Positions 7,656 through 27,624 of a DNA stretch of 64,000 nt are shown one piece after another; position 1 is the stretch's first letter; every line of letters starts with the position of its first letter. Origin of the DNA: an uncultured Bacteroidota bacterium (GTDB taxonomy: Bacteria > Bacteroidota > Bacteroidia > Flavobacteriales > Flavobacteriaceae); contig CABXVR010000002.1 of NCBI GenBank assembly GCA_902515565.1, positions 1 to 64,000 on the forward strand, given 5' to 3'. Both the position numbers and the translations under genes were made by a program. A model generated the notes under the pieces. That model was not told where the DNA came from, made no database searches, and saw only the letters and a program-made list of their open reading frames with translations.

Positions 7656-8882
7656 TCAGCTTTTATTTATTGTAATTCCTATTTTAGTTAAATCATTCCA
7701 AAAATCTGGATAAGACTTTGAAACAACATCTGGATCTTTAATAATGATATTTGTCAAAACTGATAATGGTGCAAATGCCATTGCCATTCTATGATCTTCA
7801 TAAGTTTGAATAGTAACATTGTTATTTATTTGGTTTGGATTATTAAAGCTCAAAGTATCGCTCGTAATCACTATATCAGTCCCGAGTTTTTTAATTTCAT
7901 TTTTCAATGCTAACAATCGATTAGTTTCTTTGATTAGTAAGGTCTTTAGCCCAGTCAATGAGCAATTAATTCTAAGTCCTAAACATGTCACAGCAATAGT
8001 TTGTGCTAGATCTGGTGATGAATTTAAATCAAAAGACACAGTGTGTTTAGAAATCTTAGTTTTTTTGATTGTTATTGAATTATCATTAAAACTTGTTTCA
8101 ACTCCAAATTCATTGTAAATCTTATTAAGAACAGAATCACCCTGAAGACTTGAAATATTATAGCTGCTTAATATAATTTCAGTGTTAATTGGAGATAGTG
8201 CAACAAAACTATAATAGTAAGATGCAGAGGACCAGTCTGATTCAACCTTTATAATTTTTTTTACACCCAAGTCATTAAATCTATTAATTTTAATAACATT
8301 TTCTTCAAAGCTGTATAAAACACCTAATTGATTTAATAAAGATAAAGTCATCATAATATAGGGTTTAGAAGTAATTTGCCCTTTTAAATTAACTTCTAAC
8401 CCATTTTTTAAACTAGAACCAATTAATAATAATGCAGAAATATATTGACTACTTACATTAGAATCTAAACTTAATTTATTAGTATTAAATTCTTTCCCTC
8501 TAATTCGTAAAGGAGGATAACCTTTTTTATTCAAATATTTAATATCAGCACCAATACTATTTAGAGCATCTACTAGAATTTTGATAGGTCTATTTTGCAT
8601 TCTATTAGATCCTGTAAGAATGATATTACCTGATTTAGATATTGCAAAAAATGCTGTTAGAAAACGCATTGCAGTACCAGCATGGTGAATATCGATAGTA
8701 TCTGAGTTAGAAGCTAATGCTTTATGTAAAACATTAGTGTCATCTGATTTAGAAAGGTTTAAAATAGTAATGTTGGGATAAAGTGCCTTTAAAATTAATA
8801 ATCTATTAGATTCGCTTTTTGAACCAGTAATGGATAAAAATGAACCACTTAGTACGCTAGATTTGTTAAGAATTAAACTCAT
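7656..8882 (-). CDS. aroA: 3-phosphoshikimate 1-carboxyvinyltransferase (EPSP synthase)
   Basis: SGSFLSITGSKSESNRLLIL, HAGTAMRFLTAFFA, KETNRLLALKNEIKKLG, TYEDHRMAMAFAPL. Confidence 0.93.
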   Translation of the reverse strand: MSLILNKSSVLSGSFLSITGSKSESNRLLILKALYPNITILNLSKSDDTNVLHKALASNSDTIDIHHAGTAMRFLTAFFAISKSGNIILTGSNRMQNRPIKILVDALNSIGADIKYLNKKGYPPLRIRGKEFNTNKLSLDSNVSSQYISALLLIGSSLKNGLEVNLKGQITSKPYIMMTLSLLNQLGVLYSFEENVIKINRFNDLGVKKIIKVESDWSSASYYYSFVALSPINTEIILSSYNISSLQGDSVLNKIYNEFGVETSFNDNSITIKKTKISKHTVSFDLNSSPDLAQTIAVTCLGLRINCSLTGLKTLLIKETNRLLALKNEIKKLGTDIVITSDTLSFNNPNQINNNVTIQTYEDHRMAMAFAPLSVLTNIIIKDPDVVSKSYPDFWNDLTKIGITINKS

Positions 8883-9208
8883 TTAATTAACTTATCATTA
8901 TTGTGGTGCCTATCATGATCTCTTTTAGTTTTTAATGCCATTTTTGAATCAAACGACTTTTGAAGATCTACACCTGTTTGATTAGCTAAACATAAAACAA
9001 CAAACATAACATCAGCTAGCTCCTCGCCCAGATCAGATTGTTTATCTGAATCTTTTTCACTTTGTTCACCATACCTTCTTGCAATTATCCTAGCTACTTC
9101 ACCAACTTCTTCAGTCAATTGAGCCATATTTGTCAACTCGTTAAAGTATCTAACTCCATGATTATTTATCCATTTGTCTACCTGAGTTTGTAAGTTGTTA
9201 ATTTCCAT
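8879..9208 (-). CDS. MazG-like nucleotide pyrophosphohydrolase
   Basis: LTEEVGEVARIIARRYG...DLGEELADVMFVVLCLANQTGVDL. Confidence 0.88.
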   Translation of the reverse strand: MEINNLQTQVDKWINNHGVRYFNELTNMAQLTEEVGEVARIIARRYGEQSEKDSDKQSDLGEELADVMFVVLCLANQTGVDLQKSFDSKMALKTKRDHDRHHNNDKLIK

Positions 9209-9212
9209 AAAT

Positions 9213-9659
9213 TTATTTTTTTAATTTGAGACTTGAATCATATATAATTGTAACAGGCCCGTCATTTGATAAGTTAATTAGCATGTCTGCTCCAAATACT
9301 CCAGATTTCAATTCTGTATTAAGATTTTCATTTAGTTGCTTTAAAAATTTGTCATACATAATTTTAGCTAATTCAGATTTTGCAGCTTTAATGAAACTAG
9401 GTCTGTTTCCTTTTAAAACATTTGCTTGAAGAGTAAACTGACTAACCAGCAAAACATCGCCCTTAACTTCGTTAATATTATTATCAAATGTGTTAAACAT
9501 TCTAAGTTTTATTATTTTATTTATTAGCCAATGTATATCATTATCATTGTCATCAATTGCTATTCCCAAAAAAATAACAATCCCCTTATTAATTGAGGAA
9601 ACTAACTTTCCGTCAATTATTGTTTCAGCACTCGACACCTTTTGAATAACAGCTTTCAT
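9213..9659 (-). CDS. dtd: D-aminoacyl-tRNA deacylase
   Basis: MKAVIQKVSSAETIIDGKLVSSINKGIVIFLGI, LLVSQFTLQANVLKGNRPSF, GVFGADMLINLSNDGPVTIIYDS. Confidence 0.94.
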   Translation of the reverse strand: MKAVIQKVSSAETIIDGKLVSSINKGIVIFLGIAIDDNDNDIHWLINKIIKLRMFNTFDNNINEVKGDVLLVSQFTLQANVLKGNRPSFIKAAKSELAKIMYDKFLKQLNENLNTELKSGVFGADMLINLSNDGPVTIIYDSSLKLKK

Positions 9660-10606
9660 TTAACATCAAAATTATCAACTCTGTAGCTGGACTTATCATC
9701 TTCTAAAATTTGAAGATAATTTTCATATCTAGAAATTGCAATTTTACCATCTTCAACATACTGCTTGACTATGCATTTTGGTTCATTTACATGCATACAG
9801 TCATTAAATTTACATTGATTAACCAATTTATAAAATTCTGGAAAATAATTTTTAATATCACTTTTGTTAAAATCGACTATACCAAAGCCTCTAATACCGG
9901 GAGTATCAATTATTTTAGCACCAAAATCAAGATCGAATAATTCTGCATTTGTAGTAGTATGTTGACCTTGTGAATGTTGAACAGAAATATTATTTGTTCT
10001 TAGATTTAAATTTGGCTGAAGAGAATTAATTAAAGTAGACTTACCAACTCCAGAATGTCCTCCAAACATACTTATATTATCCTTCATTAAGAATTTAACT
10101 TTGTCTGTATTATATTGGTTTTTAGCAGATATTTCAAAACATTTATATCCAATATTTGTATAAATCTCAATTAATTTTTTTAAAACTTTTTTTTCTGCCC
10201 CATCCAACAAATCGATTTTATTAAATAATAATACAGTGTTTATTGAATAAGCGTTTGACGTTAATAAAAATCTATCTATGAAATTTGTAGAAGTTACAGG
10301 GCTAGATATTGTTATAATTAAAAAAACAATATCAATATTTGAAGCTAGAATATGTGTTTGCTTGGAAAGGTTAACAGATTTTCTTAAAACATAGTTTTTT
10401 CTTTCACAAATGTTATTTATGACTCCAGTAACAACATCACTATTTTTTTCTAATTCAAAATCTACATAGTCACCAACAGCTATAGGGTTGGTGCTTTTTA
10501 TACCATCTAATCTAAATTTACCCTTAATTCGACAATCAAATTGCTCATTGCTTGGGGTTTTAACAGAATACCAACTGCCGGTTGATTTATAAACTAATCC
10601 TCTCAT
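9656..10606 (-). CDS. rsgA: ribosome small subunit-dependent GTPase A
   Basis: Circularly permuted GTPase: NKIDL, GHSGVGKSTLINSL, DTPGIRGFGI; zinc motif CKFNDCMHVNEPKC. Confidence 0.95.
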   Translation of the reverse strand: MRGLVYKSTGSWYSVKTPSNEQFDCRIKGKFRLDGIKSTNPIAVGDYVDFELEKNSDVVTGVINNICERKNYVLRKSVNLSKQTHILASNIDIVFLIITISSPVTSTNFIDRFLLTSNAYSINTVLLFNKIDLLDGAEKKVLKKLIEIYTNIGYKCFEISAKNQYNTDKVKFLMKDNISMFGGHSGVGKSTLINSLQPNLNLRTNNISVQHSQGQHTTTNAELFDLDFGAKIIDTPGIRGFGIVDFNKSDIKNYFPEFYKLVNQCKFNDCMHVNEPKCIVKQYVEDGKIAISRYENYLQILEDDKSSYRVDNFDVK

Positions 10607-10659
10607 TATTACAAAGATGAAGATTAATAACTCTCAATGCAAAAAAAATATTTAATAAT

Positions 10660-11742
10660 CTATTGTTTAAAAATGCTTTGTTGATGATTAATAGACTCTT
10701 GATGAATTGCTTTATATACTCTCAAAATAAATTGCTCACTTAAATCCTTCTTTTTACCCTCTGCAATCATTTTTTCTAGAATCTCATTCCATCTTTTAGA
10801 TTGTAAAACTGCAACGTTATTTTCTTTTTTTAAAACACCAATCTCTTCAGCTATATTCATTCTTTTTCCTAAAGTTTCTAATAATTGACTATCAACAAGA
10901 TTTATTTTTGTCCTAAGATTGTTCAAATTATTTTTATACTCATCTGCATGATCAGTAATTTTTCTAATTTTTAAATCCTTTATGATTTTTATCAAGCTGG
11001 AAGGGGTTACCTGTTGAGCTGCATCGCTCCAAGCATTATCTGGGTCATGGTGAGTTTCTACCATAAAGCCATCATAATTAAGCCCTAAAGCAGTTTGACA
11101 TAAATCAAATATTATATCTCTTCTTCCAGCAATATGAGAAGGGTCTAAAATTAAAGGCAAATCAGGAAATTTATTTTGTAACTCAATTGCAATTTGCCAT
11201 TCTGGATTATTTCTGTAATTGGTCTTTTCATAAGTGGAAAAACCTCTGTGGATAACTCCTAAATTCTTTATGTTACAAGAATAAAATCTCTCTACAGCTC
11301 CAAGCCACAATGAAAGATCTGGATTTACTGGATTTTTTATTAAAACTGGCTTATTTGTTCCTTTAAGAGCTTCAGCTATTTCTTGAACAATAAATGGACT
11401 CACAGTTGATCTAGCACCAATCCATAATATATCAATATCATGCTTTAGAGCTAATTCAACATGATTTGCATTAGCGACTTCAGTTGTAATTAGCATTCCG
11501 GTTTCTTGTTTTGCTTTTTGTAGCCATTTTAGACCTAATGAACCTACCCCCTCAAAATTACCTGGTCTAGTTCTAGGCTTCCAAAGTCCTGCTCGAAAAA
11601 CAGTAGCTTTAGTGTCCTTTAGACTATGTGCTATTTTTAAAACTTGACCCTCAGTTTCTGCACTACAGGGTCCCGCTATTGTTAAAGGGTGATTTAAGTT
11701 AAACTCATCTAGCCAGTTTCTTAATTCTTTATTATTTTTCAT
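10660..11742 (-). CDS. bifunctional DAHP synthase / chorismate mutase
   Basis: DAHPS N-terminal domain (AGPCSAETEGQVLKIA, FRAGLWKPRTRPGNFEG, LDPSHIAGRRD) plus C-terminal chorismate mutase helices (LRTKINLVDSQLLETLGKRMNIAEEIGVLKKENNVAVLQSKRW). Confidence 0.92.
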   Translation of the reverse strand: MKNNKELRNWLDEFNLNHPLTIAGPCSAETEGQVLKIAHSLKDTKATVFRAGLWKPRTRPGNFEGVGSLGLKWLQKAKQETGMLITTEVANANHVELALKHDIDILWIGARSTVSPFIVQEIAEALKGTNKPVLIKNPVNPDLSLWLGAVERFYSCNIKNLGVIHRGFSTYEKTNYRNNPEWQIAIELQNKFPDLPLILDPSHIAGRRDIIFDLCQTALGLNYDGFMVETHHDPDNAWSDAAQQVTPSSLIKIIKDLKIRKITDHADEYKNNLNNLRTKINLVDSQLLETLGKRMNIAEEIGVLKKENNVAVLQSKRWNEILEKMIAEGKKKDLSEQFILRVYKAIHQESINHQQSIFKQ

Positions 11743-12590
11743 TTTATTCCTTTGAGAATGTTTTTAATGTAATTTGTTTGTGTCATTTGAGTTTTTAGTT
11801 CTCCAAATTTATCATTTTGGAGTAAATTTTTAAAGCTCTTTAAGTTCATTATATATTCATCTAAACTCTCAACAATATTTTCTTTATTTAATTCAAGAAT
11901 TGGAGCCCACATTTCTGGTGAACTTTTTGCTAGTCTTACTGTGGATTCAAAACCACTTCCTGCCATATCAAAAATATTATTTTCGTTCTTTTCTTTATCC
12001 ATAACAGTTTTACCCAACATAAATGAACTAATGTGAGATAAATGAGATACATAGGCTATATGCTTGTCGTGAGATAAAGAATCCATATATCGAATGTTCA
12101 TGTTCATACTTCTAAATATGTTTTCAGCAGATGTCAATAGATTTGGATCGGTCTTTTCAGTATCACACAAAATCATAGTTTTATTATTAAATAAGCCTGA
12201 AAATGCAGCATTTGGTCCTGAGAACTCAGTACCAGCAATTGGATGAGATGCTAGATAGTTTTTTCTTTTTTTATGATTTTCAACTGTGCTACAAATGTTG
12301 GTTTTGGTAGATCCAAAATCAATCACTAGTGATGTACAATTAATATTATTTAAAACATCAATTATTATATTATTTGCTACATCGACCGGAGTAGAAATTA
12401 GTACTAAATCAGCTTTATATAAAACATCTAAACTAGACTTATAATCAATTAAATCTAGCTTAAGAGCTAGGTCTAAATTTTCAGAAGAAGTATCTATGCC
12501 ATAAACTTTGACTTTGGGATATATTTTTTTTATATCTAAACAAAGACTGCCTCCAATTAAGCCAACTCCAATAACAAAAATATTATTCAT
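11739..12590 (-). CDS. tyrA: prephenate dehydrogenase
   Basis: NAD-binding IGVGLIGGSLCLDIK; SHPIAGTEFSGP; SHLSHISSFMLG; aromatic operon context. Confidence 0.9.
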   Translation of the reverse strand: MNNIFVIGVGLIGGSLCLDIKKIYPKVKVYGIDTSSENLDLALKLDLIDYKSSLDVLYKADLVLISTPVDVANNIIIDVLNNINCTSLVIDFGSTKTNICSTVENHKKRKNYLASHPIAGTEFSGPNAAFSGLFNNKTMILCDTEKTDPNLLTSAENIFRSMNMNIRYMDSLSHDKHIAYVSHLSHISSFMLGKTVMDKEKNENNIFDMAGSGFESTVRLAKSSPEMWAPILELNKENIVESLDEYIMNLKSFKNLLQNDKFGELKTQMTQTNYIKNILKGIK

Positions 12591-13731
12591 TGATTCTATT
12601 AATTGCTTTAATTAATAATTCTTTTGGTGCGCATAACGAAAATCGCACATAACCTTCTCCGTTAGATCCAAATATATCTCCAGGAGCTATAAATATATTA
12701 TGATTATATAACAAATCATCTGTAAATTCTTTAGATTTTATACTTTCTTGAATTTTGGCCCAAACAAATAAGCCAGATGATAATTTATTATATGTACAGT
12801 TTAAACTATCTGCTAATTTCCAAACCAAAATTCTTCTTTCGTTGTATATTTTGTTTATTTCATTAAACCATGAGTTTGTGGAATTTAAAACAGCAATAGC
12901 TCCTTTTTGAATTGGATAAAACATTCCCGAGTCCATGTTACTTTTAACTTTTAATATATTCGAGATATTTTGCTTACTTCCCAAAACCATTCCAATTCTC
13001 CATCCAGACATATTGAACGTTTTACTTAAAGAGTTTAATTCTAAACAATGTTCTTTTGCTCCTTTTAAATTTAAAATACTTATTGGATTATCATTCAAGA
13101 TAAAACTATATGGATTATCATTTACCAATAAAATCTCATGTTTTCTTGCAAAATTTATTAATTCTTCAAATAAACTATGATCGCAATTAGCACCTGTAGG
13201 CATATGAGGGTAATTTAACCACATTAATTTAACCTTTGTTAAATCATTTTTTTCTAATTCTTGAATACTAGGAAACCAATTATTTTCGGCTTTTAAGTCA
13301 TAATATATAGGATTAGCCTGGACTAAATTTGTAACAGAGGAATAAGTAGGATACCCTGGGTTTGGTATTAAAACTGAATCGCCAATATTTAAAAAAGCCA
13401 TAGAGATATGCATAATTCCTTCTTTACTACCCATAAGTGGTAGAATTTCAGAATTAAAATCTAAATCAACATCAAACCACTTATTGTAGAATTTAGAGAT
13501 TGAAATTCTTAAATCTTCTAATCCAATATAGCTTTGGTAATTGTTTGCATATTGGTCATTTAAACTATTCTTTAAAGCCTCAATAGCATATGATGGGGGT
13601 AATAAATCTGGACTTCCAATACCTAAATTAATTATCGGATTACCTTTTTTAATTAAAGAATTAACCTCTTTTAGCTTTGTTGAAAAATAATATTCCTCAA
13701 CAGTATTTAATCGTTTTGCGCTAACTTTCAT
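12583..13731 (-). CDS. PLP-dependent class I/II aminotransferase (candidate aromatic aminotransferase)
   Basis: LGIGSPDLLPP, SLSKTFNMSGWRIG, between pheA and tyrA. Confidence 0.9.
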   Translation of the reverse strand: MKVSAKRLNTVEEYYFSTKLKEVNSLIKKGNPIINLGIGSPDLLPPSYAIEALKNSLNDQYANNYQSYIGLEDLRISISKFYNKWFDVDLDFNSEILPLMGSKEGIMHISMAFLNIGDSVLIPNPGYPTYSSVTNLVQANPIYYDLKAENNWFPSIQELEKNDLTKVKLMWLNYPHMPTGANCDHSLFEELINFARKHEILLVNDNPYSFILNDNPISILNLKGAKEHCLELNSLSKTFNMSGWRIGMVLGSKQNISNILKVKSNMDSGMFYPIQKGAIAVLNSTNSWFNEINKIYNERRILVWKLADSLNCTYNKLSSGLFVWAKIQESIKSKEFTDDLLYNHNIFIAPGDIFGSNGEGYVRFSLCAPKELLIKAINRINE

Positions 13732-14552
13732 TTCTTTCTATTTTCATATTCACCTAATACCTTAAAGTCTTTAGCCATAATAGACATGATTGATTTAGCT
13801 TTTAAATAGTATTCATAATTATCAAAAGTAATATCTATGAAGAATGAGTAAACCCAAGGAGAATCTATTTTAGGTAATGATTGTATTTTAGTTAAATTAA
13901 GTTTACAATCACTTAGAACATTTAATACTGCAGCTAAACTACCTCTTGCATGATCTAATTCAAACTTAACAGATGCTTTGTTTAATTTATCTTTAGTTTT
14001 ACTTGAATATTTTTGAAGTATCACAAATCGAGTTTCATTATGTTTTATAGTTTGGATACTCTTGTTTAATATAGTCAAAGAAAATATTTCTGCAGCCAAA
14101 TCACTTGCAATTGCTGCAATATTTTTTAGTTTATTTTCACTTATTCTCTTAGCAACTTGAGCGGTATCTTTGTCCTCAACTAATTTAATGTTTGGATATT
14201 TTTTGAAGAATTCTTTACATTGTAAAAGTGCCATAGGGTGTGAATGGACTTCTTTAATATCATTAATACTTTGACCACTTAAACAAATTAAATTATGTTG
14301 AATATCTAAATATTCTTCTCCAACAATATGTAAATTATTATTGTCAATTAACGCATAATTTGGAATAATTGAACCTGCTATAGAATTTTCTAATGCCATT
14401 ACAGCAAAATTACATTTTTCATCAACTAAAGAGTCTACCAAGTCATCAAAACTTAAAAATTCACTTATGGCTACTTCATTTTTAAAATATTGTTTTGTAA
14501 CAATATGATGAAAAGAGCCTTTTATTCCTTGAATTGCAATTGAATTTTTCAT
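13728..14552 (-). CDS. pheA: prephenate dehydratase
   Basis: IQGIKGSFHHIV, FAVMALENSIAGSI, NETRFVILQ, C-terminal ACT (FELDHARGSLAAVLNVLSDCKLNLTKIQSLP). Confidence 0.92.
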   Translation of the reverse strand: MKNSIAIQGIKGSFHHIVTKQYFKNEVAISEFLSFDDLVDSLVDEKCNFAVMALENSIAGSIIPNYALIDNNNLHIVGEEYLDIQHNLICLSGQSINDIKEVHSHPMALLQCKEFFKKYPNIKLVEDKDTAQVAKRISENKLKNIAAIASDLAAEIFSLTILNKSIQTIKHNETRFVILQKYSSKTKDKLNKASVKFELDHARGSLAAVLNVLSDCKLNLTKIQSLPKIDSPWVYSFFIDITFDNYEYYLKAKSIMSIMAKDFKVLGEYENRKK

Positions 14553-14555
14553 AAT

Positions 14556-14580
14556 AAAAAAAGCCTCGATTTTCGAGGCT
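14556..14580 (-). terminator. attenuator terminator hairpin immediately upstream of pheA
   Basis: Minus strand AGCCTCGA-AAA-TCGAGGCT followed by TTTTTT; ends 3 nt before the pheA ATG; sits in the only large gap of the run. Confidence 0.85.
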
Positions 14581-14602
14581 CACATAAATATTTGGTTACA
14601 AA

Positions 14603-14674
14603 TTATAAGTATATGGCCTCTCTTTTACTAAAAAAATAAAAGTTATAATAGATTATATGTAAGTAATTTATCAT
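14603..14674 (-). CDS. putative Tyr/Phe-rich leader peptide MINYLHIIYYNFYFFSKREAIYL
   Basis: Not in ORF track. Read from minus strand: ATG ATA AAT TAC TTA CAT ATA ATC TAT TAT AAC TTT TAT TTT TTT AGT AAA AGA GAG GCC ATA TAC TTA TAA. Six of seven codons 9-15 are Tyr/Phe; overlaps a potential antiterminator arm. Confidence 0.75.
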   Translation of the reverse strand: MINYLHIIYYNFYFFSKREAIYL

Positions 14675-14747
14675 ATTGATATTGAATGAATAGCTAATGT
14701 ATGTAAATTTTCAATATTTTAACATTATAATAGAATTAAATTCAAAA

Positions 14748-15812
14748 TTACTTTAATATTTCGTTTGACAACCAAGTCCCAACCTCAGATGTACTGAAAC
14801 TTTTCCTTCCCTCAGACAAGTCTTCAGTTACAATTAACTGCTCTAAAGAAAGATTAACAACATCGCGAATCAATTTTGCCTCCTCTTTTAGTTTAAAAGC
14901 ATCTTCAAACATCATAGCTGCAGATAATATTGTCGCTAAAGGATTTGCGATATTTTTTCCAGCAGCTTGTGGATAAGAACCGTGAATAGGTTCATATAAT
15001 GATGTTTCTAACCCAACAGATGCTGATGGCATAAGCCCCATAGAACCTGAAATAACTGAAGCTTCATCAGTTAAAATATCACCAAATAAATTCTCCGTAA
15101 TTAAAACATCATAAGATTTAGGCCATTGAACTAAACGCATAGCTACAGCATCAACAAATTCATAAGATACTGTAACCTCAGGATAGTCTTTTTCCATTGA
15201 TTGAACAGTTTCTCTCCATAATCTAGACGACTCTAAAACATTTGCCTTATCAACGCAACAAAGTTTTTTTGATCGTTTCATTGCCAGGTTAAAACCTTTT
15301 TTAGCTATCCTTTTAACCTCATTTCTAGTGTACGTGCAAGTATCATAGGCTGTTTCTCCATTGTCTAACCGGCCTCTTTTACCAAAGTAAATACCTCCAG
15401 TAAGTTCTCTTAAAAAAACAAGATCTGTACCTTCAATGATATCTTTTTTTAATGGGGATTTATTTAGCAACGAAGGAAACACAAAAGTTGGTCTAACATT
15501 TGCAAATAAACCTAATTTTTTTCTCATTTTTAATAATCCCTGCTCAGGCCTTACTTTGGCAGACGGATCATTATCAAACCTAGGATCACCGATAGCTCCA
15601 AATAATATAGCATCTGCATTTAAACAAATTTCGTGCGTAGTATTTGGGTATGGGTCATCATGAACATCAATTGCAGCTGCTCCAACTAGACCGTTAATCC
15701 AACTAATTTGATGATTAAATTTTTTGGCAACAGCGTTAGAAACCTTAACTGCTTCATTAATAACTTCGGGACCGATACCATCGCCAGGTAAAACAGCTAT
15801 ATTTAATTTCAT
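14748..15812 (-). CDS. leuB: 3-isopropylmalate dehydrogenase
   Basis: IAVLPGDGIGPEV, LFGAIGDPRFD, LRELTGGIYFGKRG, EPIHGSYPQAAGKNIANPLA. Confidence 0.96.
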   Translation of the reverse strand: MKLNIAVLPGDGIGPEVINEAVKVSNAVAKKFNHQISWINGLVGAAAIDVHDDPYPNTTHEICLNADAILFGAIGDPRFDNDPSAKVRPEQGLLKMRKKLGLFANVRPTFVFPSLLNKSPLKKDIIEGTDLVFLRELTGGIYFGKRGRLDNGETAYDTCTYTRNEVKRIAKKGFNLAMKRSKKLCCVDKANVLESSRLWRETVQSMEKDYPEVTVSYEFVDAVAMRLVQWPKSYDVLITENLFGDILTDEASVISGSMGLMPSASVGLETSLYEPIHGSYPQAAGKNIANPLATILSAAMMFEDAFKLKEEAKLIRDVVNLSLEQLIVTEDLSEGRKSFSTSEVGTWLSNEILK

Positions 15813-15822
15813 TTTTAATAAG

Positions 15823-16419
15823 TTAAAGTGGTGTATTTTTAGCGAATTCAGTAATGGTCTCTTTCATGTTTATTAAATAGTCAATATCGTCATATCCATT
15901 TAACATATTATTTTTTTTATAATCATTTATGTTAAATGACTCACTAAGTTTTAAATCTGGAATGCTAACTAATTGATTAGGCAAATCAACATTAAGCTGA
16001 ATATTTGGGTTTTTATAAATATTTTCAAAAATTATATTTAAAAAGCTAGGTGAAACTTGAACAGGGAGAACACCAACATTTAAGCAATTGGCTCTAAAAA
16101 TATCAGCAAAAAAACTTGAAATAACGCATCTAAAACCATAGTCATAAACAGACCAAGCTGCATGCTCTCTAGATGATCCAGAACCAAAATTTTTACCCCC
16201 AACAAGTATTTTTCCATTGTATATTGGATTATTCAATACGAAGTCTTTTATAGGTGAGTTATCTGAATTATATCTCCAATCTCTAAATAAATTATCTCCA
16301 AAACCCTTTCTCTCAATTGCTTTTAAAAACCTTGCAGGGATTATTTGATCTGTATCAATATTTTCTATTGGTAAAGGAATACATGAGCTCTTAAGTATTT
16401 TAAATTTATCGTATGCCAT
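15823..16419 (-). CDS. leuD: 3-isopropylmalate dehydratase small subunit
   Basis: NIDTDQIIPARFLK, GGKNFGSGSSREHAAWSVYDYGFRCVIS. Confidence 0.96.
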   Translation of the reverse strand: MAYDKFKILKSSCIPLPIENIDTDQIIPARFLKAIERKGFGDNLFRDWRYNSDNSPIKDFVLNNPIYNGKILVGGKNFGSGSSREHAAWSVYDYGFRCVISSFFADIFRANCLNVGVLPVQVSPSFLNIIFENIYKNPNIQLNVDLPNQLVSIPDLKLSESFNINDYKKNNMLNGYDDIDYLINMKETITEFAKNTPL

Positions 16420-16424
16420 TTTTA

Positions 16425-17819
16425 TTAAAATAAAGTTCTTGGATCGGTTATCACTCCTGTTACTGCTGCTGCTGCTGCAACCAAAGGACTGGCTAAAATA
16501 GTTCTTGATCCAGGTCCTTGTCTACCTTCAAAATTTCTGTTTGATGTACTTACAGCATACTTTCCTTTAGGAATTTTATCATCATTCATAGCTAAACAGG
16601 CAGAACAGCCAGGTTCTCTAAGTTCAAACCCAGACTCAGTTAAAGTGGCTAAAATACCCTCATCTATAATAGCCTTCTCCACTTGATGAGAGCCCGGAAC
16701 TAACCATGCAGTGACATTATTTGCTTTTTTTCTACCCTTAATTATTTTGGCAAAATCTCTAAAATCTTCAATTCTCCCATTAGTGCAACTTCCAAGAAAA
16801 ACAAAATCTATTTTTTTTCCTAACATACTTTCTCCTTCATCATAATTCATATAATTAAGAGATTTAAAATAGCTTTTTGAAGCTGAATTTTGGTCATCAA
16901 CTTTTGGAATATCATTTAATATACCCATTCCCATACCAGGGTTAGTACCATAGGTAATCATTGGAGTAATACTACAACCGTCGAATGATATTTCTTTATC
17001 AAAAACTGCATTAGGATCGGTTTTTAAAGTTTTCCAATATTCCATTGCCCTATCCCATTTATCTCCCTTTGGAGTAAACTCTTTTTCTTTTATGTATTCA
17101 AAAGTTTTATCATCTGGAGCAATCATTCCTCCTCTAGCTCCCATTTCAATACTAAGGTTACAAACTGTCATTCTACCCTCCATGGACATTTGCGAAAATA
17201 CTTCACCATAATATTCTACAAAATAACCAGTAGCCCCAGCTGTACTTAATTTTGAAATAATATATAATGCAACATCTTTTGGACTAACACCTTTACCTAA
17301 TGAACCATTTATCGTAATTCTCATTTTTTTTGGCTTTGGCTGCATAACACATTGCGTAGACAAAACCATTTCCACCTCAGAAGTTCCTATACCAAATGCT
17401 ATAGCACCAAAAGCTCCATGAGTAGATGTATGAGAATCTCCACAAACAATTGTAGCACCAGGCTGAGTAATGCCATATTCAGGGCCAACCACATGTACAA
17501 TACCATTTTTTTCATGACCTAAACCCCAATATAAAATACCATGCTCTTCAGAGTTTTCTTCTAGTACTTTTAATTGGTTTGCAGACAACTTGTCTAAAAC
17601 TGGAAGATGTTGGTTAATAGTTGGTGTATTATGATCTGCAGTAGCAAAAGTTTTTTCAGGGTACAATACTTTAACTCCTCGATTTTTTAGACCTAAAAAT
17701 GCAACTGGACTTGTCACTTCGTGAATCATGTGTCTATCTATAAACAAAACATCTGGACCGTTAGAGATTTTACTAACAACGTGTGAATCCCAGACTTTAT
17801 CAAATAAAGTAGTACTCAT
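16425..17819 (-). CDS. leuC: 3-isopropylmalate dehydratase large subunit
   Basis: [61 protein letters not shown]. Confidence 0.96.
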
Positions 17820-17831
17820 TTTTGTTACTAT

Positions 17832-18983
17832 TTATAAAATATTATTAATTATTTCTGGAATATCCTTATCCAATACACTTTTATTGTTATCTGCAAATTT
17901 TAAAAATTCAGGATAAACTAAATCTAATTCATCTTTAGATAGTTCAAATCCAACTAATTTAGCCCTGTATGCCAATGCCGACCTTCCACTTCTGGCAGTT
18001 AATATTATGGATGATTTATTTACCCCAACATCAAAAGGGTCAATTATCTCGTAGGTTAACCTATTCTTTATAACGCCATCTTGATGTATTCCAGAACTAT
18101 GCGAAAAAGCATTTGCACCAACAATAGCTTTATTAGGCTGAACCATCATACCCATGCTTTCAGAAACTAAAAGACTAGTTTCATAAAGAAGCTTTGTGTC
18201 TATGTTAGTATCTAAATTTAGACTGTTGTGTTGCTTCATAATCATTACAACTTCCTCTAAAGAAGTATTTCCAGCTCTTTCTCCAATTCCATTAATTGTA
18301 CATTCAATTTGTCTTGCACCGTTTGCAATAGCAGCAATTGAATTTGCAGTGGCTAAACCTAAATCATTATGACAATGACATGATACAGTTGCCTTGTCAA
18401 TATTTTTAACATTTTCAAAAAGGTATTTAATTTTATTACCATAATCCTCTGGAAGACAGTATCCAGTTGTGTCAGGAATATTTAAAACTGTCGCTCCAGC
18501 TTCAATCATTTTTTCACAAACTTTTGCTAGAAATGCATTATCAGTTCTTCCAGCGTCTTCAGCATAAAATTCTACATCTTCAACGAATGTTTTGGCATAC
18601 TTAACAGCATTATAACCAGTTTCTATAATTTTTTCCCGAGTAGAATTAAACTTATGCTTGATATGTGAATCAGAAGTTCCAATACCGGTGTGAATCCTAG
18701 GGAACTTAGCGTATTTTAAAGCTTCTCCAGCAACCTTAATGTCATTCTCAACTGCTCTTGAAAGAGCACAAACAGTAGTGTCCTTAATAATTTTTGTAAT
18801 TTCTAAAACTGAATTAAAATCTCCAGGACTAGAAACAGGAAACCCAGCTTCAATTACATCAACACCAAGGTTTTCTAGTTTTTCTGCAATTACAACCTTT
18901 TGAGCTGTATTAAGCTTACAACCCGGCACCTGCTCTCCATCTCTTAAAGTAGTATCAAATATTTTAACTGATTCTTTATTCAT
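17832..18983 (-). CDS. leuA: 2-isopropylmalate synthase, short form lacking C-terminal regulatory domain
   Basis: [57 protein letters not shown]; only 383 aa. Confidence 0.93.
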
Positions 18984-19040
18984 TTATAAAAAATTATACT
19001 CAATAAAAATAGTGAATTATAACAACTAAATATATTAATA

Positions 19041-20633
19041 CTACAAAATATAATCAGTCGAAATAAAGTTTGATTTTTTTGTGTTTAATAAATCCTTTAT
19101 AATTTTTTTATTTGTAGGGTTATCTTTGGAAGCAACGAAAGTTCTAATTGAAAAAGATCTTAAAGCATCATGAACACTTAAGGTACTAAAAGCTGAATCT
19201 TTTCTGCCAGTAAAAGGATAATTGTCTGGACCTCTTTGACAAGAACTATTAAGATTAACTCTGCAAACTAAGTTAACTAGAGTATCAATAAGTGGTCCTA
19301 ATTTATCAATATCTGTACCGAATACACTTGCTTGTTGACCATAATTAGATTCAGCCATATCATTTAGAGGCACATTAATATCATTAAATGTTAAAATTGG
19401 AACAACTGGGCCAAACTGCTCGTCTTTATAAACATCCATATCTTTGGAGACAGGAAATAATACAGCAGGGAATACATAGTTTTCTGAGCTTAAACCACCA
19501 TTTTTATTTATAATTTTAGCTCCTTTATCTTGGGCATCAGAAATTAATTCTTTAATATATTTTGGTTTATTTGGTTCAGGCAAGGGAGTTAATTGTGCAT
19601 TATTATCCCAAGGGTTACCAAAATTCAACTCATCAACTTTTTCGCTAAACATTTTATTAAACTTTTCAACAATTTGTTCATGTACATAGATGATCTTAAG
19701 AGCTGTACACCTTTGACCATTAAAAGATAAAGCGCCTGCAACACACTCGTTAACTGCTAATTCCAAATCGCAATCTGGCATTACTATAGCTGGGTTTTTA
19801 GCCTCTAATCCTAAAACAAGTCTTAACCTATTTTTCTTAGGGTGGCATTCTTGTAATGCATTAGCTGAAGAACTATGACCGATTAAAGCTAAAACATTAA
19901 CTTTTCCAGACTCCATTATAGGAGTGGCTAAAACTCTTCCTCTTCCATAAAGAATATTTACAACTCCTTTAGGAAAACATTTTTGAAATGCCTCCATCAA
20001 TGGAGATATTAATAAAACTCCATGTTTAGCTGGTTTAAAAATAGCTGTATTACCCATAATCAGAGCTGGTATTAATAAACAAAAAGTCTCATTTAAAGGA
20101 TAATTATACGGACCTAAACATAATACAACACCTAGTGGTCCTCTTCTAATATGGGCATAAATATTGCTATTTTTTTCAAATTTTGCGGAGTCTCTGTCAA
20201 TAATCTTGTATGCTTCAATTGTATCAAAAATATAGTCAACTGTTCTGTCAAATTCCTTTTCAGAGTCAGCTAAGTTTTTACCAATCTCCCACATCAATAA
20301 CTTAACAATTTCATCTCTTTTAGTTTTCATTTCATTTGCGAAATTTCGCATATGCTTAATTCTATCACGCACTTTCATGGTTGGCCACTCACCTCTTCCA
20401 TTATCAAATGCATCACAAGCAGAATCTAATGCTTCTATGGCTTGTTCTTTTCCCAGACTTGGAATTTTACCTAAAAGGGTTGGTTTGTATTCCTTTGTAG
20501 ATGAAATTGTAGAATATACATTAGAAAAATCTCCTTTCCAATTAACTAAATTACCTGAAACAAGATAATCTTCTTGATTTACTAAATTATTGATTTTATA
20601 TTTTTCAGGAATTTCATTGTATGATAGTTTCAT
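19041..20633 (-). CDS. aldehyde dehydrogenase, GapN-like (NADP-dependent glyceraldehyde-3-phosphate dehydrogenase)
   Basis: ALDH motifs ([71 protein letters not shown]) and GapN-like C-terminus ([36 protein letters not shown]). Confidence 0.82.
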
Positions 20634-20662
20634 ATTTATTTTTTTAATAATTTATTTATTTC

Positions 20663-21916
20663 TTATATTAAGAAGTGAAATAGTTCAGGTTTATTGTTTA
20701 AATAATCTTGATAAAAACCAAAACTTTTCATTCTTTCGATTAGTGGCTGTAAATCTGTCTGATTTTTTAATTCAATTCCGACGCTTGCAGTTCCATTACC
20801 CATTTGATGTTTTTTCATATATTGAAAATATGTAATATCATGATTTGATCCCAAAACTTCGTTAACAAATTCTTTTAACGCACCTGCTCTTTGCGGAAAT
20901 TTTAGGATAAAGTAATGTTTTAAATTAGACCAAAGCATTGCTCTTTCTTTAATCTCTGACATTCTTGCAATATCATTATTACTGCCACAAATTATACAGC
21001 CAACTTTTTTGTTTTTTATTTTTTTCTTGTATTGACTTAAAGCACTTATTGCCATTGCTCCAGCTGGTTCAACTACAATTGCATCTTTATTGTATAAATC
21101 TAAAATTGTTTGACATATCTCACCTTCATCAGTTAAAACTATATCATCTAGGTGTTTATTACATAAATTAAATGATATCTCACCAACTCTTTTTACAGCA
21201 GCACCATCAACAAAGTTATCTATGAATTCAAGGGTTGTAATTTTTTTGTTCTTTAATGACACATGCATGGAGGGCGCGCCAGCTGGTTCAACTCCTATAA
21301 TTTTAGTTGTTGGCGAGAGTTGCTTAAAAACACTTAAAGCGCCTGCAATTAAACCTCCACCTCCAATAGGAACAAATAAATAATCTAATTTATCAGCATG
21401 TTGATTAATGATTTCTAAAAATAACGTTGCTTGCCCTGCAATTACATCATAATCATCGAATGGGTGAATAAAAACTTTATTATTATTTTTTGTAAATTTT
21501 AAAGATTCGATATTAGCTTCATCATAATTATCACCAACTAAAATTACTTCCACAAATTTACCTCCAAACATTTTAACTTGATTTACTTTTTGGCCAGGAG
21601 TTGTTGTTGGCATAAAAACTGTACCAAGAGTGTTGAGTCTTTTGCAAGCTAAAGCAAAACCCTGAGCATGATTTCCTGCACTAGAGCAAACCACCCCTTT
21701 TTTGAGTTGAGAATCGGATAAAGAATAAATTTTATTATAAGCCCCTCTTATCTTAAAGGATCTTACTTGCTGAAGGTCTTCTCTTTTTAAAAACACTGAA
21801 CATCCAAATAATTCACTATACCTAGTATTTTGATAAAAGGAAGTTTTTACAACTACATCTTTTATATTTGACTGGGCTTTTTTAATTATTGATATTTCTA
21901 ACAATTTATTAGACAT
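20663..21916 (-). CDS. ilvA: threonine dehydratase (biosynthetic)
   Basis: LKREDLQQVRSFKIRGAYNKI, SSAGNHAQGFALAC, PIGGGGLIAG, ACT-like C-terminus. Confidence 0.94.
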   Translation of the reverse strand: MSNKLLEISIIKKAQSNIKDVVVKTSFYQNTRYSELFGCSVFLKREDLQQVRSFKIRGAYNKIYSLSDSQLKKGVVCSSAGNHAQGFALACKRLNTLGTVFMPTTTPGQKVNQVKMFGGKFVEVILVGDNYDEANIESLKFTKNNNKVFIHPFDDYDVIAGQATLFLEIINQHADKLDYLFVPIGGGGLIAGALSVFKQLSPTTKIIGVEPAGAPSMHVSLKNKKITTLEFIDNFVDGAAVKRVGEISFNLCNKHLDDIVLTDEGEICQTILDLYNKDAIVVEPAGAMAISALSQYKKKIKNKKVGCIICGSNNDIARMSEIKERAMLWSNLKHYFILKFPQRAGALKEFVNEVLGSNHDITYFQYMKKHQMGNGTASVGIELKNQTDLQPLIERMKSFGFYQDYLNNKPELFHFLI

Positions 21917-23385
21917 TAAACAATTTTTTTCATTTGTTTCATAGAATTTCTTAAAGTCATACCTATTTTTTCAATCGGATGAGAACTAATAATTGAATTA
22001 ATATCAATTAAATCACTGTCATGAAAATCATCAGAAGTGTCACATGCAATACCAATGGTATTAGCAGGCAAATCAGTTACAAAATCTTTTAAAAGAGGCT
22101 TGCAAGCATGATCAAACAAATAACAACCATACTCTGCAGTATCTGAGATAATTCTATTCATCTCAAATAATTTTTTTCTTGCAACTGTGTTAGCTATAAG
22201 AGGTAATTCATGTAAAGATTCATAATAAGCAGAAGAATCGATTATTCCAGAATCAACCATTGTTTCAAAAGCTAGCTCAACTCCTGATCTTACAAATGCA
22301 ATCATTGCAATTCCATGATCAAAATACTGCTGTTCATCAATTTTTTCATTTGATGAATTAGTTTTCTCGAACAAGGTTTCACCAGTTTCAGCTCGCCATT
22401 TTAGTAAGTTTTTATCATTATTGTGCCAATCTAACATCATTGTCTTAGAAAACTCTCCAGACATAATGTCGTCCATATGTTTTTTAAACAAAGGTCGCAT
22501 TAGGACTTTTAAATCCTCGGAAATTTTAAATGCTTTTATTTTTGAATTATCAGAAAGTCGATCCATCATTTTAGTGATACCTCCGTGTTTAAGCTCCTCT
22601 GTAATTACTTCCCAGCCATTTTGAATCAATTTTGCAGCATATGTTTTTTCAACTCCTTGGTTAATCATTTTATCAAACAATAAAATTGATGCAGTTTGCA
22701 AAACTCCACATAATATGGTTTGTTCACCCATCAAATCACTTTTCACTTCAGCAACAAATGAAGATTCTAAAACTCCAGCTTTGTGACCACCTGTTGCCAC
22801 AGCATAAGCTTTAGCTTGACTTAAACCTTTATTTTCGGAATCATTTTCAGGATGAACTGCAATAAGGGTAGGAACTCCGAAACCTCTTTTGAATTCTTCT
22901 CTTACCTCAGTTCCTGGACATTTTGGAGCCACCATAATAACAGTAATGTCCTTTCTGATTTCCATTCCCTCTTCAACAATATTAAAACCATGAGAATAAG
23001 ATAGTGTAGAACCTTTTTTCATCAAATGCATAATTGATTTTACAACATTAGTGTGTTGTTTGTCAGGAGTAAGGTTTAAAACTAAATCAGCATCGGGGAT
23101 TAATTCTTCATATGTTCCAACAGTAAAACCATTATTAGTCGCATTTAAAAAAGATTGTCTTTTTTCTTCAATGGACACTTTTCTTAACGAATAAGAAATA
23201 TCTAGTCCAGAATCTCTCATATTAAGGCCTTGATTTAATCCTTGAGCACCACAACCAATAATAACTATTTTTTTATTTAATAATGCAGATACTCCGCTAT
23301 CAAATTCGTCAGAATTCATAAATCTACATCTTGAAAGCTGGTCTAATTTTTCACTTTTCGAAAGGGTGTTAAAATAATTTTTCAT
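21916..23385 (-). CDS. ilvC: ketol-acid reductoisomerase, long (class II) form
   Basis: [50 protein letters not shown]; 489 aa. Confidence 0.95.
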
Positions 23386-23397
23386 TATGTTTTTTAA

Positions 23398-23928
23398 TTA
23401 ATTTTTAAAATCAGATAATATTTCTGAAATATTCATTGGTTTTTTTGTTATGGCAACAGCTCCAGATCTGACAAATTGTAGAATTCCGTATTCATTCAAT
23501 TTATTATATAAACTATCAATCTCTTTTCTTCTACCAGATTTTTCTAATACAAAAAACTCTTTGTTTACAGTTACTATCCTGGCATTACTGTCTTTAATAA
23601 TGTTTTGTATTTGTCTATCATCAAATAATAAACTTGATTTTATTTTAAACAAGCAAGACTCTTGATAAACGGTATCATCTTCATTATGGTAGTAAGCTTT
23701 AATTACTTCAATTTGTTTGTCAATCTGGCCTATTATCTTTTTTATTTGAATTTCAGTTACATTTACAATAATCGTAAACCTATACACACCTTTAATTTCT
23801 GAAACTGAAGAGTTTAAACTCTCAATATTAATATGTCTTCTTTGAAATATTGCAGAAATTCTGTTTAATAATCCAATATTATTCTCAGTATAAATTGAGA
23901 CCGTAAATGTTTTAATTTCTTTTTCCAT
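23398..23928 (-). CDS. ilvN: acetolactate synthase small subunit
   Basis: ACT: FTVSIYTENNIGLLNRISAIFQRRHINIESLNSSVSEIKGVYRFTI; next to large subunit. Confidence 0.93.
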   Translation of the reverse strand: MEKEIKTFTVSIYTENNIGLLNRISAIFQRRHINIESLNSSVSEIKGVYRFTIIVNVTEIQIKKIIGQIDKQIEVIKAYYHNEDDTVYQESCLFKIKSSLLFDDRQIQNIIKDSNARIVTVNKEFFVLEKSGRRKEIDSLYNKLNEYGILQFVRSGAVAITKKPMNISEILSDFKN

Positions 23929-23930
23929 AC

Positions 23931-25628
23931 TTATTTTAATCTTATATCTGAAACCGCTGCCCCACTTGGAATCATTGGAAATACATTAGCTTCTTTTTCT
24001 ACAACTACTTCTAAGAAAAATGATTCTTTAGATTTTATCATTTCTTCAACTGCAGAAGCAAGATCATCTCTTTTTGATACTTTATTACTTTTAATGTAAT
24101 AAGCCTTGGCAATTGCAGTAAAGTCTGGATTAACAAGTTCTGTAGAAGCATATCTCTTTTCAAAGAATAGTTGCTGCCATTGTCTAACCATACCTAAAAA
24201 ACTATTATTCAATACCACAATCTTAACAGGAACTTTAGATTGAAATATCGTACCTAACTCTTGAATTGTCATCTGATATCCTCCGTCCCCTATCACTGCT
24301 ACAACTTCTCTTTCAGGACATGCCATTTTAGCTCCTATAGCTGCCGGAAGTGCAAAACCCATAGTACCTAAGCCGCCTGAGGTTATGTTACTTCTTGATT
24401 TATTAAAATTAGCATAACGACAAGCAATCATTTGATGTTGACCAACATCAGTGACAACTGCAGCATTTCCTTTGCTATAGTTATTAATTTCTTTAATAAC
24501 TTCACCCATAGTTAAACCATCTTTAGTAGGGAACAAATCTTCTTTAATTACTGAATCATACTCAATCTTATATAATTCTTTAAAATTATTAAGCCATTTG
24601 TCATGTTTTCTTAATTTCAATAAGGGCAAGATCTTTGTTAAACTTTCTTTAGCATCTCCTAACACTGGAACATCTGCTTTAACATTCTTATTTATTTCAG
24701 CTTTGTCTATTTCAAAATGAATTACTTTGGCTTGCTTTGCGTATTTATCTAAATTTCCGGTAACTCTATCATCAAATCTCATCCCAATAGCAACCAAAAG
24801 GTCACATTCATTGGTAAGCATGTTTGGTGCATAATTTCCATGCATTCCAACCATTCCAACGTTTAAAGGGTGTGAAGTAGGTATAGCCGAGACCCCCATA
24901 ATAGTCCATGCAGCGGGAATACCTGTTTTTTCAACAAAAGCCTGAAATTCTATTTCTGCTTCTGAGAGAATAACTCCTTGACCCCAAACTATTAAAGGTT
25001 TTGAAGCATTGTTAATTAAATCAGCAGCTAGATTTAGGCTTGTAGCTTCTAGTTTGGGAACTGGCTTATAACTTCTTATTCCAGTTACTTTTGAATAATT
25101 AAAATCAAACATCTCAAATTGAGCATCTTTAGTAATATCAATTAAAACTGGACCGGGTCTACCACTTTTAGCTATGTAAAATGCTTTTGCTAATACCTTT
25201 GGTATATCAGCAGCTTTTGTGACTTGGTGATTCCATTTTGTGACAGGTGTAGATATTCCAACTATGTCTGTTTCTTGAAATGCATCACTTCCTAATAAAT
25301 GTGAAGCTACTTGTCCGGTGATACAAACCATTGGAGTAGAATCAATTTGAGCATCAGCTAAACCAGTTACTAAATTTGTAGCTCCAGGACCTGAGGTTGC
25401 AATTGCCACGCCTACCTTACCTGATATTCTTGCAAAACCTTGAGCAGAATGTGTAGCTCCTTGTTCATGCCTAGTTAAAACGTGATGAATTTTATCTTCG
25501 TATTTATGAAGTTCATCGTATACCGGCATTATAGCACCACCAGGGTATCCGTATATAATTTCTACTCCTTCAGCTATTAAACATTTAACAACTGCTTCAC
25601 TACCGCTTATTTTTTTTTGACTACTCAT
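23931..25628 (-). CDS. ilvB: acetolactate synthase large subunit
   Basis: ThDP enzyme: GYPGGAIMPVYDELHK, RHEQGATHSAQGFARISGKVGVAIATSGPGATN, GDGGYQMTIQELGTI. Confidence 0.96.
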   Translation of the reverse strand: MSSQKKISGSEAVVKCLIAEGVEIIYGYPGGAIMPVYDELHKYEDKIHHVLTRHEQGATHSAQGFARISGKVGVAIATSGPGATNLVTGLADAQIDSTPMVCITGQVASHLLGSDAFQETDIVGISTPVTKWNHQVTKAADIPKVLAKAFYIAKSGRPGPVLIDITKDAQFEMFDFNYSKVTGIRSYKPVPKLEATSLNLAADLINNASKPLIVWGQGVILSEAEIEFQAFVEKTGIPAAWTIMGVSAIPTSHPLNVGMVGMHGNYAPNMLTNECDLLVAIGMRFDDRVTGNLDKYAKQAKVIHFEIDKAEINKNVKADVPVLGDAKESLTKILPLLKLRKHDKWLNNFKELYKIEYDSVIKEDLFPTKDGLTMGEVIKEINNYSKGNAAVVTDVGQHQMIACRYANFNKSRSNITSGGLGTMGFALPAAIGAKMACPEREVVAVIGDGGYQMTIQELGTIFQSKVPVKIVVLNNSFLGMVRQWQQLFFEKRYASTELVNPDFTAIAKAYYIKSNKVSKRDDLASAVEEMIKSKESFFLEVVVEKEANVFPMIPSGAAVSDIRLK

Positions 25629-25630
25629 TT

Positions 25631-27307
25631 TTAAAATTCATCTGTAACACAGCCTTTAGAAGCTGATGAAACAGTTTTTGCATATTTATATAATGAACCA
25701 AAATCTACTTTCAATTTTGGTTCAACCCATTTATTTTTTCTTTTTATTAACTCATTGTCTTCAACATCAAGAATTATTGTGTTTTTTATTGCATCAATGA
25801 TAATGGTATCACCATTTTCAATTAAAGCAATGTTACCTCCATTTTGAGCTTCTGGTGTTATATGTCCAACAACAAAGCCGTGAGTACCTCCTGAAAATCG
25901 ACCATCAGTGATTAAAGCAACATCTTTCCCAAGTCCAGCTCCCATAATAGCTGCTGTAGGCTTTAACATTTCAGGCATTCCAGGGCCTCCTTTAGGTCCT
26001 TCATATCTAATAACAACAACATCCCCTTTTTTTACTTTTCCTTCACCAATCCCTTTATTTGCCGCAAATTCAGAATCAAAAACAATTGCTGAACCCTTAA
26101 AAACTAAACCTTCTTTACCCGTAATTTTAGCTACTGAACCTTCCTCTGCAATATTTCCATATAATATTCTAATATGACCTGAACTTTTAATTGGGTTTTC
26201 TGTTGTTTTAATAACATCTTGATTCAGTTTAAGATCACTGACTTCTTTTAAATTCTCTTCTAATGTTTTACCAGTAACGGTAAGACATTCACCATGAATT
26301 AATCCTTTTTTAAGAAGATATTTCAAAACTGCAGGAGTTCCTCCAATATCATGCACATCTTCCATTAAATATTTTCCACTAGGCTTTAAATCTGCTATAA
26401 ATGGAGTGCTATCACTGATTTTTTGAAAATCATCTAATGTGAAATCTATTTTTGCAGCCCTAGATATAGCTAGAAAGTGTAATACAGCATTGGTAGATCC
26501 ACCAAGAGCAACTACTAATCTAATAGCATTTTCTAAAGATTTTCGAGTAACAATATCTAATGGCTTTAAATCTTTGATTAGTAGATTTTTTATCGCTTTA
26601 CCACAATTTTCAGATTCAATTTCTTTAAGTTTACTGTTAGCTGGATTTGACGAATTAAATGGTAAGGACATTCCTAACGCTTCAATGGCAGAGGCCATTG
26701 TATTTGCGGTATACATTCCACCACATGCTCCAGCACCTGGGCAAGCTTTTTTAATTATTGACTTATATTCCTGATTATCCATCTGCCCAGAAACCTTACT
26801 TCCCCATGCTTCAAAAGCAGAAACTATATCTAATTTTTTTCCATTGTGACAACCCGAATCGATTGTACCTCCGTAAAGCAATATTGATGGTCTATTTAAT
26901 CTAATCATAGCCATTAATGCTCCTGGCATGTTTTTATCACACCCAACTACAGTGACTAAACCATCATAGCTCATGGCTTGGACAACTGTCTCCATTGAGT
27001 CTGCAATAATATCTCTTGAGGGTAAGGAATATCGCATTCCTGGGGTACCCATTGAAATTCCATCACTAACCCCAATGGTATTAAAAATTAATCCTGTAAC
27101 ATTATTTGATAAAACTCCTTTTTTTACAAGTTTTGATAAGTCATTTAAATGCATATTACATGGATTCCCTTCATAACCAGTACTAGCTATTCCAACAATT
27201 GCATTTTTAAAGTCAGATTCTTTCATCCCAATGGCATGCAACATTGCCTGAGCAGCCGGTTGTGTATCATCTTGAGTAACCGTTTTACTATACTTGTTTA
27301 AATTCAT
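25631..27307 (-). CDS. ilvD: dihydroxy-acid dehydratase
   Basis: [70 protein letters not shown]. Confidence 0.96.
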
Positions 27308-27624
27308 TTTATGAGATTCTTAAAATTAAAGGCTTTAATTAAATTATTCTTAGTGAAAGATGGCTAAATTTGAAATATCCATATTTATCTATTTTTCAGT
27401 GATTTAACCTTATAAATCCTAAATAAATATATATTTATTAATTGAATATTAAAAATTAATAACCGAATTATTAATTAGTATTTAGAATTAGGAAAAATGA
27501 TATATAGACCATTATTTAAAAAAATAAAATGAACTATCAAAAAGAATAAAAAAAACTACCAATAAGATTGAACTAATAAAATAAAAATAGACTTTTCAAC
27601 ACAAATTAAGCTTAAATAACTATA

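Follow-up and report, generated by a model that had tools for sequence, protein, structure and literature searches.

The window, i.e. the entire 64,000-nt stretch of DNA analysed here, encodes on its minus strand an aromatic amino acid operon, whose reading frames overlap from pheA through the aminotransferase and tyrA genes to a DAHP synthase-chorismate mutase fusion (DAHPS-CM; Table 1). The Pfam assignments of these genes (prephenate dehydratase, aminotransferase, prephenate dehydrogenase and DAHPS/CM) identify Phe and Tyr as the products of the operon. On the same strand (7656-11742), DAHPS-CM is followed by rsgA, D-aminoacyl-tRNA deacylase-like and MazG-like genes, and the gene for EPSP synthase (aroA), with rsgA and aroA identified by Pfam and the other two assigned by eye. 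As these genes share a strand and are separated by short gaps, aroA may lie on the same transcript as pheA and hence share the attenuation proposed below.

Upstream of pheA, a gap of 195 nt separates it from leuB. Read on the minus strand, this gap carries a short leader ORF, an intrinsic terminator and an antiterminator pairing that competes with the terminator. The ORF contains five Tyr and three Phe codons (8 of 23 residues aromatic), most of them concentrated in residues 9-15, in accordance with the products of the operon. An earlier preliminary description, made from the sequence of the window alone, had reported this Tyr/Phe-rich ORF with coordinates that proved exact to the base, and had matched its codons to the downstream genes, a match that the Pfam assignments bear out. 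The hairpin, the T-run and the distance of 3 nt between the end of the latter and the pheA ATG (14552) were likewise found where it had placed them. The terminator arms are AGCCTCGA (14580-14573) and TCGAGGCT (14569-14562), and the hairpin surpasses all other terminator-like sites of a 19-kb region (9000-28000) in both total pairs and G-C pairs; its 25-nt sequence occurs only once in the genome. The competing pairing had also been anticipated, albeit with a 3-nt TGA bulge: the antiterminator does exist, but its best form joins GAGGCCATATA to TATGTG-A-GCCTC through 11 pairs around a single-A bulge (-15.1 kcal/mol), and no duplex as good arose in 500 shuffles of the ORF-end segment. Elsewhere in the window, an AT-rich gap of 317 nt lies upstream of ilvD (27308-27624, minus strand), in which inspection by eye revealed neither a branched-chain-rich leader ORF nor a strong terminator.

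Table 1. Features of the leuB-pheA gap and of the operon downstream of it, in window coordinates
Feature	Position	Strand	Basis or remark
Putative -7 promoter box TACATTAG, Bacteroidota type TAnnTTTG	14694..14701	-	putative assignment from motif
Leader ORF MINYLHIIYYNFYFFSKREAIYL*, 23 codons	14603..14674	-	sequence
Proposed regulatory codons TAT TAT AAC TTT TAT TTT TTT (YYNFYFF)	14630..14650	-	sequence; aromatic run conserved family-wide
Antiterminator 5' strand GAGGCCATATA, overlapping the leader ORF at its 3' end	14610..14620	-	duplex with terminator 5' arm
Antiterminator 3' strand TATGTGAGCCTC, including the terminator 5' arm	14575..14586	-	folds and duplexes
Intrinsic terminator hairpin AGCCTCGA-AAA-TCGAGGCT	14562..14580	-	sequence; -13.0 kcal/mol for 14581-14561
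Terminator T-run, 7 T	14556..14562	-	sequence
pheA, prephenate dehydratase, first gene under the proposed control	13728..14552	-	PF00800, E 9.4e-55
Class I/II aminotransferase, 4-nt overlap with pheA	12583..13731	-	PF00155
tyrA, prephenate dehydrogenase	11739..12590	-	PF02153 + PF20463
DAHP synthase-chorismate mutase fusion	10660..11742	-	PF00793 + PF01817

To examine the conservation of this arrangement we searched for PheA in 301 Flavobacteriaceae genomes and analyzed 149 upstream regions, mostly from different genera, with a detector that requires an ORF in which a ten-codon stretch encodes at least 6 Phe, Tyr or Trp residues, and a terminator downstream of it. Such a leader precedes pheA at 148 of the 149 loci, and at none of the 149 when the same detector is applied to the reverse strand; the sole miss (L028) is truncated where its contig stops and contains the same core sequence. 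Thus, the leader is not peculiar to the genome of the window. Among named relatives it was recovered in 79 of 80, including species of Lacinutrix, Psychroserpens, Gelidibacter (G. algens), Olleya (O. aquimaris), Bizionia, Tamlana and Winogradskyella, with the remaining record truncated at a contig end, and it is retained in the two metagenome-assembled genomes L225 and L226, whose PheA proteins are 94% and 93% identical to that of the window. The typical leader peptide of the relatives is MKTTNYTYYNWFYFFFSDKSEILYV or similar, while a second group has MTKQYFWNGFYFYFFFKRSTGLF. A putative promoter element accompanies the leaders: TAnnTT(A/T/G)G is found 55-150 nt before the leader stop codon in 211 of 219 family leaders, and the -33 TTTG is visible in most relatives and indistinct in the window. 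A sigma-70 promoter scan was discarded as uninformative for Bacteroidota. In two relatives (L020 and L030), palindromic repeats (TCCCGCC..GGCGGGA) are situated between the attenuator and pheA, placing the gene 230-570 nt away, and the leader is retained.

Across 245 non-redundant leaders the antiterminator duplex has a mean energy of -12.75 kcal/mol. Shuffling the ORF ends gives -5.9 and swapping arms across sequence classes gives -7.9, and the native duplex is better than its own shuffles in all 245. The three segments involved, namely the antiterminator strand and the 5' and 3' arms of the terminator, covary across leaders: GAGAC/GTCTC/GRGAC, GGGAC/GTCCC/GGGAC, GGATT/AATCC/GGATT, GCGGT/ACCGC/GCGGT and GGAAC/GTTCC/GGAAC are all observed, and the window has GAGGC/GCCTC/GAGGC where its congener L003 has GAGGT/GTCTC/GAGAC. 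As the antiterminator strand was located via its pairing, and these 5-nt triplets were tabulated from the best-pairing stretch, the table is biased towards pairing, and swapping of arms provides the fairer comparison; in 2 of the 245 leaders the 5-nt core of the antiterminator is imperfect. Formal pair counts are weak among close relatives because their arms hardly vary, and the covariation rests on the divergent sequence classes. The ORF likewise bears signs of selection on what it encodes: in an alignment of 165 leaders, substitutions at aromatic positions are mostly among Phe, Tyr and Trp, and the synonymous share of single-base codon differences before the antiterminator strand is 0.277, against an expected 0.165, in pairwise comparisons that are not independent of one another. 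The preliminary description had interpreted the gap as an attenuator and had proposed the leaders of related flavobacteria as the place to check it; the comparison, which recovered an aromatic-rich ORF, the terminator, the T-run and a covarying antiterminator within the family and in other families, supports that interpretation.

The spacing of these elements is also conserved. The last core aromatic codon precedes the antiterminator strand by a median of 11 nt (interquartile range 9-11; 9 in the window), and the end of that strand precedes the end of the stop codon by a median of 6 nt (7 in the window) across the same 245 leaders. With the usual ribosome footprint, a ribosome stalled on the aromatic run just spares the antiterminator strand, whereas one positioned at the stop codon covers it; hence, the layout of the leader appears to be what a ribosome-operated switch would require. 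In folding predictions for the window, the antiterminator forms if its strand is free and the 3' arm has yet to be made, and the terminator alone forms if a ribosome occupies the stop codon. At full equilibrium, by contrast, folding of the window leader prefers the terminator even with the antiterminator strand free. The antiterminator would therefore have to win kinetically, in the course of transcription. A weak hairpin is predicted beside the antiterminator strand in the window, and in a test for a 1:2 pause/protector hairpin the mean pairing probability of this strand before the 5' arm is made was 0.76.

In light of this anatomy, we propose with high confidence that transcription of the pheA-aminotransferase-tyrA-DAHPS/CM operon is controlled by a ribosome-mediated attenuator located in this gap. 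In the proposed mechanism, a ribosome would translate the leader closely behind RNA polymerase. When charged tRNA-Tyr or tRNA-Phe is scarce, it would stall in YYNFYFF with its leading edge just short of GAGGCCATATA, leaving this strand free to pair with TATGTGAGCCTC as soon as the latter is made; the terminator would then not form and the operon would be transcribed. When both tRNAs are charged, the ribosome would advance to the stop codon and cover the GAGGCCATATA strand, so that AGCCTCGA would pair with TCGAGGCT and transcription would end before pheA. From the sequence we infer that the ORF is translated, that the ribosome is coupled to the polymerase, and that readthrough depends on starvation.

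No rival reading fits this anatomy as well. As the hairpin comes after leuB on the same strand, and that gene has no other strong terminator behind it, it could be taken as merely the terminator of the upstream ilv-leu operon, with the ORF an accident of an AT-rich gap. However, relatives such as L005 retain the ORF, the antiterminator and the terminator beside a different upstream neighbor (in L005 an ABC-transporter ATPase gene) on the opposite strand, which contradicts the reading of the hairpin as the terminator of an upstream operon. Moreover, of 5000 dinucleotide-shuffled versions of the gap, 14 contained a terminator-like site and 168 an aromatic ORF, but none had both in the right order, and the ORF and the arms covary. 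Accordingly, we regard the leuB terminator explanation as scarcely credible. A different possibility, that the hairpin chiefly hides or exposes the start of pheA without terminating transcription, draws on the close approach of the T-run to the ATG in the window. Against this, the distance from the leader stop codon to the start of the pheA match ranges from about 49 to 574 nt among relatives, with the gene in many of them beginning tens to hundreds of nt past the hairpin, yet the T-run is kept almost everywhere; and Bacteroidota make little use of Shine-Dalgarno pairing. The wide variation in distance alongside the persistence of the T-run makes a start-site mechanism very unlikely as the main mode of control; on the translational effect at the pheA start that the preliminary description had mentioned as a possibility, the comparison speaks neither for nor against.

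A riboswitch or a T-box-like element, in which a metabolite or tRNA senses the leader directly and the ORF is secondary, would also be compatible with conservation of an RNA structure 5' to biosynthetic genes. Yet, at gathering score no Rfam leader family, T-box included, matches the window or seven relatives, and the whole window yields only two tRNAs. The Phe_leader model (RF01859) reaches 20.6 bits (E 0.34) in the window, short of its gathering score of 55, and covers the hairpin only; like the other low-threshold Rfam matches in the window, it was dismissed as being at chance level. Furthermore, families differ in the peptide and the RNA sequence but keep the aromatic content and the distance from it to the antiterminator. 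Direct sensing by the RNA is thus extremely improbable, and ribosome-mediated attenuation remains our preferred interpretation.

Across the phylum, this detector, with its threshold lowered slightly, recovered leaders before pheA in 13 further families: four within the order (f4, f5, f11, f16), six elsewhere within the class (f18, f19, f20, f23, f24, f26) and three outside it (f31, f34, f43). Between families the peptides, RNA sequence and arms differ, and the plan is the same. No leader was found before pheA in f7 (five loci), f13 (one locus) or f17 (three loci, from 0.6-Mb genomes), nor in three f23 genomes (L202-L204), in which pheA immediately follows another reading frame. The leaderless pheA genes of f7 (L190, L193-L196) encode mostly divergent PheA proteins, about 30-35% identical (47% in L190), and the 0.6-Mb genomes in which pheA has no leader (L187, L188 and L197) are reduced.

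Many leaders additionally contain Trp codons, which are present in 155 of 219 family leaders and 4 of 26 from outside the family; the window leader has none. The idea that such a codon tracks Trp synthesis was rejected: trpA is near-universal, scoring above cut-off in 279 of the 301 family genomes, so that loss of Trp synthesis does not account for the roughly 30% of leaders that have no Trp. A further connection to Trp emerged in genomes devoid of pheA. When 121 family genomes were scanned with a covariance model built from the element, the strong matches were pheA leaders; among the extra weak matches, L310 and L312 are also pheA leaders, and L309 is a leader of DAHPS in a pheA-less genome. 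Four other weak matches (L305, L306, L307, L308) have no aromatic gene downstream and were discarded as ordinary GTCTC/GCCTC-type terminators. Pfam detected no prephenate dehydratase in any of the 29 family genomes without a PheA match, 26 of which have a DAHPS-CM gene at a readable locus. At 13 of these 26 loci (L315, L317-L324, L326, L328, L334, L335), DAHPS is preceded by an ORF with a Trp-Trp pair (often WWH) and a hairpin/terminator, usually with an antiterminator pairing; the peptides, e.g. MYNTSLYWWHPYKL and MTNNNTWWSNSKFYLKR, have few Phe or Tyr residues. None of 223 pheA upstream regions contains a Trp-Trp ORF of this type. Among pheA-less genomes the Trp-Trp leader occurs in 11 of 15 with Trp genes versus 2 of 10 without them (Fisher p = 0.015, with one truncated locus omitted, congeners counted separately and some assemblies incomplete). 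Thus, the leader codons appear to follow whichever aromatic product remains. Together these observations raise a broader proposal on which we are evenly poised, namely that this is a phylum-wide and probably ancient attenuator, in which a single leader senses Phe and Tyr together, along with Trp in most Flavobacteriaceae, controls the whole aromatic branch, and has been retuned to Trp-Trp before DAHP synthase where pheA was lost.

The position of such an element before pheA and the general idea of attenuation have already been published: a 2021 transcriptome study of Flavobacterium psychrophilum described a conserved structured 5' element upstream of pheA, present also in other Flavobacteriaceae, and strong clues for leader-peptide attenuation upstream of amino acid operons (PMC9723704). 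This element occupies the same place as the window leader; the main text of that study does not give the peptide, the switch anatomy, the covariation, the spacing or the spread beyond the family, part of which its supplements may hold. Short ORFs in long 5' UTRs have been reported in Bacteroides thetaiotaomicron (PMC7366714). In the searchable literature on attenuation in Bacteroidota, only the F. psychrophilum study bears directly on this leader; setting aside its supplements, searchable papers yielded no account of the anatomy, the three-segment covariation, the spacing, the occurrence in other families or the Trp-Trp counterpart before DAHPS.

Attenuation of amino acid operons is textbook knowledge in Proteobacteria and hardly described in Bacteroidota. 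The latter are an abundant phylum in which promoters and start-site rules are distinctive. A pheA attenuator in most examined Flavobacteriaceae and in 13 other families provides a directly testable system in this phylum, and would imply that transcription and translation are coupled in these bacteria. Annotation also gains from it an Rfam family and a short gene that have been missing, and the loss of pheA accompanied by Trp-Trp leaders before DAHP synthase offers a natural test of the rule that codons match products.

Among known systems, the closest in outline is the enterobacterial pheL leader (RF01859), which features a short ORF rich in codons for the product and an antiterminator/terminator switch, upstream of pheA. 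The Bacteroidota leaders share these features but use Tyr and Phe, often along with Trp, where pheL uses Phe alone; furthermore, in the window the antiterminator strand overlaps the last codons of the ORF, and the operon includes tyrA and DAHP synthase. In the logic of the mechanism and the order of elements they likewise resemble the trpL, hisL, ilv, leu and thr leaders of Proteobacteria and Actinobacteria, from which they differ in belonging to another phylum, in having no relation detectable with Rfam and in that one leader would read several amino acids.
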